Assembly: GCF_020150815.1 (NCBI RefSeq)
Contig: NZ_CP083723.1
Span: 1,240,001-1,304,000 of the forward strand
DNA: 64,000 nucleotides
DNA from: Haloprofundus salilacus
GTDB taxonomy: Archaea; Halobacteriota; Halobacteria; Halobacteriales; Haloferacaceae
Direction of reading: 5' to 3'
Of the stretch, positions 6,915 to 9,314 are shown in pieces. Under the pieces are notes generated by a model, which was not told where the DNA came from, did not search any database, and saw nothing but the letters and a program-made list of their open reading frames with translations. Every line of letters begins with the position of its first letter. Position 1 is the stretch's first letter. Both the position numbers and the translations under genes were made by a program.

Positions 6915-7216
6915 CGTCCGCACCTTTTACTGCCGCCGTCAAGTAGCTTGCTCACCATCGTCTGTGAAGAACTGAGCGAGGCCGCTCTCTCGTCGGGCGC
7001 TGCGTCGGACAGTTCGAGAATCTCGCAGTCGGGACCTAGTTCCCTTCGAGCGCTCGAATCCCCGTATCAGCTATCGAATATGTAAAGTTGCAGTAGATTT
7101 TTGAACCTACTTTCGTTGCCGGTGGAGTCTCTATTCTCGCACATATACATGGATTCGAACCAATGTCACCAATCTGTTAAGTGTCTCGTCGTGGTACGTA
7201 GACACGGTGACGAAAC
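6915..7216. other. divergent intergenic region, no gene
   Basis: About 300 bases separate the divergent synthetase gene and the period-5 repeat protein. I see no convincing ORF or RNA. AT-rich pieces occur at 7070-7100 and 7165-7182 (CTGTTAAGTG, a TATA candidate about 38 bases before the ATG at 7217). Confidence 0.6.
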
Positions 7217-8653
7217 ATGTCTAACGACCCGACGAACTCCGACGACCCGACAGATCGTGAACGAAACGTCACGACGGACCGAGAGCACATTCGAACCTGG
7301 GCCGACGAACGCGAATACGTTCCTGTGTACGAGGAACGCGACGACGGAGCGATAAACTACCGATTCGTCCGAGAGAGTGAGATAGACGACACTCACGACC
7401 GACGCGAGTGGGACGAGTTCTTCGAGACGTTGGAGTCGCAGAACGTGGCGTTCGCGTACCCCGAAGAGGAGGTCGAGGGCGACGCCGAACCGTGGCAGTT
7501 CGTTACACGCTCCGACATCGCCGGGCGGGCCGCTCTCGACAACGAGGAGGTCGAAGAGGCGTTGATCGAGGGTGAGACGGTAACGACGGAGGTCACCGAG
7601 ACGAAAGTCGTCGAGCGCGAAATCGTCGAACACGACACTATCGAGAGCAACGTCGTCGACACCGAGACTATCGGCGAGACGCTCGTCGACCGCGACCTCG
7701 TCAGTCGAGAACTCGTGGAGGCGTCGTTCCTCGACGAAGCGCGGGTCGAAGCGACCATCGAGGAGGTGTGGACGAACACCTACGAGATACTCCAACGGAT
7801 GACTATCCACAGTCGTGTCGTCGACACGGAACTGGAGGAGACCGACACCGTCGAGAGCGACACGATGGAAGCGAGCGTCGACATCGGCGGCGTCGAACAG
7901 ACGCTCGTCGAAAGCGACATCATCGGGACGGAAGCCGTCGGTAGCGAGATCGTCGAGGCGGGCGTCATCGAGAGCGAGGTGATCGAGGGCGACATCATCG
8001 AGAGCGAACTGTTCCAGCGGCTCGTCGTTCAAGAGGAGGTCGAAGAGCGAAAGCGCGGCATCTACACCCTCTCGGAGACGGAGCTCCTCGAAACGGACGT
8101 CTTCGACACCGAAATCATCGAGCGCGAGATCGTCGACCGAGAGTACGAAGGCATGGAAGCCGTCGAGAGAGAGACGGCCGCGGCGCGCACGACCACTCTC
8201 TCCGAGCGTCTGGACCAGCTCGAGATGGGCGGAGGGACCGCAGCGCCGACGGAGACGGAAGGCACGGCGGCCGCCGAGGAGAACCGCTCGGAAGCGGTCG
8301 AACAGGCCGACACGACCGAGACCGAGGAGACGGAACCGTTCACCAGCGAGGCGACCGAGTCGACCGAAGGTGCGCAGGCCGGGACCGACCAGAGTACCGC
8401 CGACGAGGAGGCCCCCGAGGCGCACCTCGACGAGAGCGACCAAGGGAAAGATATCGTCGACGAGAGCGGCCGAGAAGTCGGCATCGTTGCGAAAGTCGAA
8501 GGTGACGTCATCCACGTCGACCCGTCGCCGAGTCTCACCGACCGGTTGAAAGCGGAACTCAACTGGGGCGACGTCGACGACGACACCTACACCCTCTCGG
8601 GGTCGGACGTTCGAGAGGTCACCAGTTCGCGTGTCGTCGTCCGCGACATGTGA
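7217..8653 (+). CDS. acidic protein with hydrophobic-hydrophobic-acidic pentad repeats and a PRC-like C-terminus
   Basis: 478 aa, strongly acidic, no signal or membrane segment. Residues 111-180, 230-269 and 290-319 consist of back-to-back five-residue units: two hydrophobic residues (V/I/L/T), then mostly an acidic residue, then two polar ones (VVERE, IVEHD, TIESN, VVDTE, LVDRD). About 28-32 units are visible, 14 of them in perfect phase. Residues 325-440 are an acidic Thr/Glu-rich linker. The end (about 440-478) resembles the small beta-barrel seen at the end of other haloarchaeal proteins (DESGREVGIVAKVEGDVIHVD). The pattern differs from the classic A(D/N)LxX pentapeptide repeat. I do not recognise the family. 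It is transcribed alone. Confidence 0.85.
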   Translation: MSNDPTNSDDPTDRERNVTTDREHIRTWADEREYVPVYEERDDGAINYRFVRESEIDDTHDRREWDEFFETLESQNVAFAYPEEEVEGDAEPWQFVTRSDIAGRAALDNEEVEEALIEGETVTTEVTETKVVEREIVEHDTIESNVVDTETIGETLVDRDLVSRELVEASFLDEARVEATIEEVWTNTYEILQRMTIHSRVVDTELEETDTVESDTMEASVDIGGVEQTLVESDIIGTEAVGSEIVEAGVIESEVIEGDIIESELFQRLVVQEEVEERKRGIYTLSETELLETDVFDTEIIEREIVDREYEGMEAVERETAAARTTTLSERLDQLEMGGGTAAPTETEGTAAAEENRSEAVEQADTTETEETEPFTSEATESTEGAQAGTDQSTADEEAPEAHLDESDQGKDIVDESGREVGIVAKVEGDVIHVDPSPSLTDRLKAELNWGDVDDDTYTLSGSDVREVTSSRVVVRDM

Positions 8654-8726
8654 ACTCGGACGCTGTCGTTCGCGGACGCTGAGTGCTGCGTAAATTCTTT
8701 TGCCCGCTCGGTGACTATCGGGTAAC

Positions 8727-9314
8727 ATGTACGTGCGGGACGCCAAGAACCGTGACGAGGTCTGGTTACTCGACCACATCGAGGCGATGGGACTCGACGA
8801 CGCCGCGTTCCGCTCGCGCGACTACGTCGTCGCCGTCGACGAGTCGTCGAACACTCGCGCGGGGTTCGGACGCATCCGTATCCACAAACACGACGAGGGC
8901 GACTTCTGCGAACTCACAGGTATCGGCGTGCTGGAGGCGTGGCGCGGACAGGGCGTCGGCGCGCACGTCGTCGAACGACTCGTGAAGACCGCCGGCGACG
9001 AGGTGTTCGAGCAGGTGTACTGCTTCACAGACGAACCGGGGTATCTCGTGCAGTTCGGTTTCGAACCGGTTGAGTCGGAGAACCTCCGCCCAGCGGTTCG
9101 CGAGCGACTCGAAGCCAAGCGCGATAGCGTGATGCCCGACGCGGTGGCGCTCTCGCTGCCCGTCGAGGCGTTCGAGATGTCGACAGAGGCTCGAGAGGCG
9201 TTCAAGCGAGCCGCACCAGAGTTGGACCCGGAGTCGGCGGAACCAGAGGAGAGCGCCGAGGACTTCGGTATCGACCCGGACTCGGCGACGTACAAGTACG
9301 ACACGGGGCGATGA
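8727..9314 (+). CDS. GNAT-family N-acetyltransferase
   Basis: 195-aa acetyltransferase. The acetyl-CoA binding motif A is visible as GIGVLEAWRGQGVGAHVVERL around residues 70-90, followed by the beta-bulge strand and the YLVQFGF motif B. The N-terminal 130 residues make one GNAT domain; the last 60 or so residues are an acidic tail. A TATA-like GTAAATTCTTTT lies about 30 bases before the ATG, supporting this start and a leaderless message. The substrate amine is not predictable. Confidence 0.85.
   Translation: MYVRDAKNRDEVWLLDHIEAMGLDDAAFRSRDYVVAVDESSNTRAGFGRIRIHKHDEGDFCELTGIGVLEAWRGQGVGAHVVERLVKTAGDEVFEQVYCFTDEPGYLVQFGFEPVESENLRPAVRERLEAKRDSVMPDAVALSLPVEAFEMSTEAREAFKRAAPELDPESAEPEESAEDFGIDPDSATYKYDTGR

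Follow-up and report, generated by a model that had tools for sequence, protein, structure and literature searches.

What kind of protein is built around some 200 residues of acidic five-residue units, and which fold and role could be assigned to such an array? This question is raised by a gene in the 64,000-nucleotide stretch of Haloprofundus salilacus DNA that was analysed here, which we call the window. The preliminary description of this DNA drew attention to positions 7547-8173, that is, to residues 111-319 of the ORF 7217-8653 (+), as about 30 acidic five-residue units unlike the classic pentapeptide repeat, and it put forward a beta-helix and a mimic of DNA as possible readings. The features needed for the argument are the following:

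7169..7182, + strand: upstream element CCAATCTGTTAAGT, conserved, at a distance of 34 nt from the ATG
7217..8653, + strand: whole gene, 478 aa (ORF and translation)
7256..7540, + strand: N-terminal 'WDEFF' domain, residues 14-108 (domain profile)
7547..7741, + strand: pentad module A, residues 111-175, practically without indels in 148 homologs
7742..7924, + strand: pentad module B, residues 176-236, whose units are degenerate, with the main insertion point just before it
7892..7903, + strand: phase slip, the 4-residue unit VEQT, residues 226-229 (reading of the array)
7925..8173, + strand: pentad module C, residues 237-319, a homologue of module A offset from it by 139 residues
8174..8422, + strand: acidic low-complexity linker, residues 320-402, of variable length
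8423..8650, + strand: predicted C-terminal PRC-barrel domain, residues 403-478 (model, Foldseek and weak Pfam match)

Rhythm, chemistry and age of the array

The presence of a regular five-residue array in residues 111-319 is confirmed. Over residues 101-330, the spectral power of the hydrophobic residues at period 5 is 28.4, whereas none of 20,000 shuffles exceeds 9.4, and the N-terminal and C-terminal parts of the protein, which do not have this period, give 1.3 and 1.1. The best period lies at 4.95-5.05 in all of the 16 homologs examined. The five-residue phase runs unbroken from residue 111 to 225 and resumes from 230 to 319. The preliminary description placed units in perfect phase over residues 111-180 and further ones at 230-269 and 290-319; the period of five stands, but the array is slightly more continuous than was stated there, with a single 4-residue slip. 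A manual count from the unit listing gives about 41 pentad slots, and the hydrophobic pair is found in about 31 of them, which bears out the earlier figure of about 30 units.

The unit can be written as V/I/L/T - V/I - E/D - x - E/D, with an acidic residue at position 3 in 28 of 42 slots and at position 5 in 25 of 42. This chemistry is unusual. Aspartate and glutamate make up 30.6% of the repeat, with an E/D ratio of 3.6, and since 43 ORFs of the window have 17.0% D+E (SD 5.4) and an E/D ratio with a median of 1.15, the acidity of the array is above the usual haloarchaeal level. The non-repeat N-terminal part of the protein is equally acidic, with 30% D+E.

When the window protein is aligned with 148 homologs, whose median identity in the array is about 39%, residues 111-212 and 218-304 are almost gap-free. 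The main insertion point lies after residue 175, where extra residues (median 32 aa) are inserted in 75 of the aligned sequences, and the other indel sites are residues 214-217 (deleted in about 17%), 243-246 and, beyond residue 304, the end of the array. Particular units have invariant residues of their own among 39 sequences (L116, G119, V131 and E138), while R164, S199 and S233 are nearly invariant, and dN/dS in the array ranges from 0.12 to 0.34 against four congeners. Modules A and C align with each other, profile to profile, over 58 columns with a probability of 96.5%, and the module A profile matches again at module C inside the same proteins (E of 1.9e-7, 5.6e-7 and 7.8e-8 in genomes G010, G070 and G216). 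Across 145 genomes, this profile detects one gene per genome in 40 and has no match outside the family. The near-absence of indels, the unit-specific residues and the homology of modules A and C mark the array, to judge from these alignments, as an old structure of fixed length, and not as a slippery or currently expanding repeat. Likewise, the profile matches indicate that it arose in part by the duplication of a module of about 60 residues.

End domains, family and genomic setting

The array is set within a larger architecture, in which the WDEFF domain (a name given here, after its motif) is followed by the pentads, the acidic linker and the PRC-barrel. The profile of the WDEFF domain matches stand-alone plasmid proteins of rhizobia, of about 90 aa, with E values of 5e-18 to 1e-15, as well as a stand-alone haloarchaeal protein of 94 aa (L112); no Pfam family is found above cut-off for this domain. 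Apart from the stand-alone form, it occurs in haloarchaea with a PRC-barrel and without the array (L105) and, by Pfam, with a lamin tail domain (L106, which L107-L109 resemble). These matches point to a modular domain common to haloarchaea and to rhizobial and Rhodococcus plasmids. The AlphaFold model of this region has a pLDDT of about 63-72 over residues 21-70. The stand-alone form also gives a weak, sub-threshold match to Prim-Pol (E 0.003).

At the other end of the protein, the pLDDT is 74-84 over residues 401-440 and 77-81 over 461-478. All 50 of the matches listed by Foldseek against the PDB are PRC-barrel proteins (RimM, CdpB1/CdpB2, reaction-centre H and similar), with probabilities of about 0.9-1.0 and a best E of only 4.6e-3, and 4 homologs out of 16 match Pfam PRC, with a best E of 2.8e-4. 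A PRC-like fold of the C-terminus is thus shown by the predicted model, with sequence support that is weak but consistent. Further genes with the same type of PRC-barrel occur, several in the genome of the window and many in related genomes. The linker that precedes this domain has a gap fraction of 0.4-0.9 across the homologs and a pLDDT of about 30-48.

Among the genomes sampled, this unnamed family appears confined to Halobacteria. Full-length homologs were found in 76 of 125, 21 of 28, 20 of 146 and 5 of 9 genomes of the respective Halobacteria families, and when 295 genomes of the phylum were sampled, all matches fell within the window's own order. The nearest named relative is that of Haloprofundus marisrubri (L031), with 77% identity in pairwise alignment. 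Several genomes of one family (G725, G733, G737, G738, G743 and G744; loci L189-L210) carry two diverged copies each. The search for viral relatives found none, and sequence searches of the PDB returned nothing, or chance-level matches. The NCBIfam entry Mfer763_fam matches weakly (E 0.006, with 16.8 bits where the cut-off is 170 bits), and it gave no match in the genomes searched, controls included. No description of the family seems to exist in the libraries that were searched, and no counterpart of the repeat could be found in Pfam, NCBIfam or the PDB.

The gene is under purifying selection, with dN/dS of 0.04-0.54 across its domains when the window gene is compared with four congeners, and no signal peptide or membrane segment is apparent when the sequence is read by eye. 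The 14-bp element CCAATCTGTTAAGT is identical in the window gene and in its four congeneric orthologues, while the remaining upstream DNA has diverged; it is probably the core promoter (BRE/TATA-like). On the opposite strand, an ORF of 537 codons (7166-8779, -) mirrors the whole gene. We set it aside as a mirror ORF of the kind typical of GC-rich coding DNA, because it is the + frame that is conserved as protein across the whole family. The gene is flanked in the window by a divergent acetyl-CoA-synthetase-like gene on one side and by a GNAT gene on the other. The comparison of gene neighbourhoods found no neighbour conserved throughout the family and backs no particular pathway. In one family (f7), an HhH-GPD DNA glycosylase gene lies nearby (L077, L079-L081, L085 and L086), and four of these loci also have a peroxidase-family (katG-like) gene in the vicinity. 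This may be a lead toward a role in stress, or mere shared ancestry.

Possible folds and roles of the array

In two AlphaFold runs of two sequences each (the window protein and L031), the array came out at a pLDDT of 25-58, with low-confidence helices, and a mean-field covariation analysis, underpowered with 149 sequences (effective 87), gave no clear contact pattern. Tested for super-periods that would reflect coils of 2-8 or 12 pentads, the array shows none that is significant, and a 10-residue alternation that had seemed to be present at long offsets was lost in this test. No period-4 signal was detected among the units, but a quadrilateral beta-helix does not require such a signal. A coiled coil is disfavoured because the units are rich in V, I and T and because periodicity at 3.5 or 3.6 is absent. 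Indeed, over residues 81-330 the power is 1.5 at 3.5 and 1.1 at 3.6 against 29.9 at 5, and coiled-coil membership was rejected for want of a heptad-type period. Disorder is disfavoured because the array is nearly gap-free. The beta-helix to which the period of five had been taken to point is thus one possible reading, and from the V/I/T composition, the lack of helical periodicity and the gap-free conservation we infer that an elongated beta structure is the likeliest form.

The known pentapeptide-repeat fold is a right-handed quadrilateral beta-helix with four units per coil, in which residues i (L/F, central) and i-2 (small) point inward. A divergent member of this group would account for the period of five and the many contiguous units, and a weak match to HetL (E 0.021) is seen in one homolog. 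Pentapeptide-repeat proteins are recognised by at least 8 contiguous units fitting the consensus (A/S/T/V)(D/N)(L/F)xx (PMC8145042). In its best 20-unit window, the array fits 3.05 of 5 positions (family mean 3.11, maximum 3.55), against 3.55-4.75 in 15 haloarchaeal pentapeptide-repeat controls, the weakest of which equals the family maximum, and a mean of 2.69 in shuffles. The fraction of central L/F (0.25 against 0.70-1.00) and that of the core pair (0.40 against 0.65-1.00) are below all controls, and since the two hydrophobics are adjacent, and not at i and i-2, a core built on the known layout would contain E/D or R. Pfam scans of the window protein and 15 homologs do not find PF00805, nor do the six frames of the window's genome contain a match to it, whereas 40 of 97 haloarchaeal genomes do. 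Membership of the PENTAPEPTIDE-repeat group is therefore rejected by sequence, as the preliminary description had anticipated, and a divergent quadrilateral beta-helix is very improbable. The DNA mimic that it had also proposed, a charged rod that would occupy a DNA-binding enzyme, was drawn from MfpA and Qnr, gyrase inhibitors that bind gyrase as a dimeric acidic rod. The D+E content of the array, well above that of the other window ORFs, and the recurrence of acidic residues every five residues would suit this idea, but the sequence features that define those inhibitors are missing here, and the high acidity is in part normal for haloarchaea, as the non-repeat N-terminal part illustrates. 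Moreover, no linkage with genes for gyrase, restriction or defence is conserved, and the PADLOC search yields nothing beyond a weak match to AbiEi (E 0.02). The mimic is thus unsupported, and we give it scarcely any credence.

Two further alternatives take the overall plan of the protein into account. An extended or disordered acidic polymer, serving as a sticky, cation-binding or salt-adapted spacer with no defined fold, would agree with the acidity of the array, with its low AlphaFold confidence and with the L105 protein, which has both end domains and dispenses with the array. Yet some 200 residues almost without indels in 148 homologs, a hydrophobic pair kept in most units and unit-specific invariant residues are hardly what it predicts, and the true linker alongside behaves quite differently, so that we regard it as unlikely. 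In bacterial stress proteins of the YsnF/AvaK type, a PRC-barrel is joined to E- and V-rich strands (DUF2382), and the protein studied here could be their haloarchaeal counterpart in role, with the array replacing DUF2382. The plan is similar, and the peroxidase-family and glycosylase genes of the f7 neighbourhoods suggest a context of stress, but these neighbourhoods are limited to related genomes. DUF2382 membership itself was rejected: PF09557 matches neither the window protein nor any of 116 haloarchaeal genomes, while the Bacillus subtilis and Deinobacterium controls are positive. Such a counterpart is, in our view, distinctly unlikely. A new type of beta-solenoid may be envisaged as well, with five-residue faces, an adjacent hydrophobic pair of which one member would point in and the other out, conserved glutamates, and three modules that would serve, in the high-salt cytoplasm, as a rigid acidic ruler or as a surface for binding; we consider it possible, if rather unlikely.

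The best explanation, to which we give a probability of about 0.48, is that of an intracellular adaptor specific to Halobacteria, in which the WDEFF domain and the PRC-barrel would be held apart by a beta-rich acidic rod of fixed length, followed by a flexible acidic tether. The two end domains, the PRC-barrel being a protein-docking fold, would bind partners; the roughly 40 pentads of the three modules would fold as one elongated beta structure, acting as a rigid spacer or as a binding surface; and the tether would join this rod to the PRC-barrel. The domain order, the period of five, the near-absence of indels and the homology of modules A and C are observed. The adaptor reading is supported by an array that stays almost gap-free while the adjoining linker varies freely, as well as by the period of five, the invariant residues of single units, the dN/dS of the array, its V/I/T-rich units that lack a helical period, the PRC-barrel fold search and the modular nature of the WDEFF domain. 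Against it stand the array pLDDT in the two-sequence AlphaFold runs, the lack of a covariation contact pattern and the lack of a conserved neighbour.

Comparison with known systems

An unnamed family of proteins, conserved in Halobacteria, is defined by this work. Should its array fold as a regular rod, there would be a second way to build a structure from five-residue units, and one that is stable in molar salt. Moreover, the joining of WDEFF, an unnamed bacterial-archaeal domain, to a PRC-barrel gives a testable context for both. Residues 403-478 are modelled as a PRC-barrel like the C-terminus of RimM, CdpB1/CdpB2 and the reaction-centre H subunit, and the archaeal CdpB1/CdpB2 have the same type of docking domain; however, these proteins have neither the WDEFF domain nor the pentad array, and solved PRC domains share only about 12-20% sequence identity with the C-terminal domain. 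The hypothetical WDEFF proteins of about 90 aa on plasmids of rhizobia and Rhodococcus are homologous to residues 14-108, but they consist of this single domain, with neither repeat nor PRC. The YsnF/AvaK type differs through its DUF2382, for which the window protein has no match, and through the extra N-terminal domain of the latter. Finally, the array resembles PF00805 proteins such as MfpA, Qnr and HetL in being a long contiguous run of five-residue units with a hydrophobic position in nearly every one; unlike theirs, its unit is h-h-E-x-E, with adjacent hydrophobics and no Pfam match, and the array is fixed, with conserved residues specific to individual units, and flanked by two other domains.
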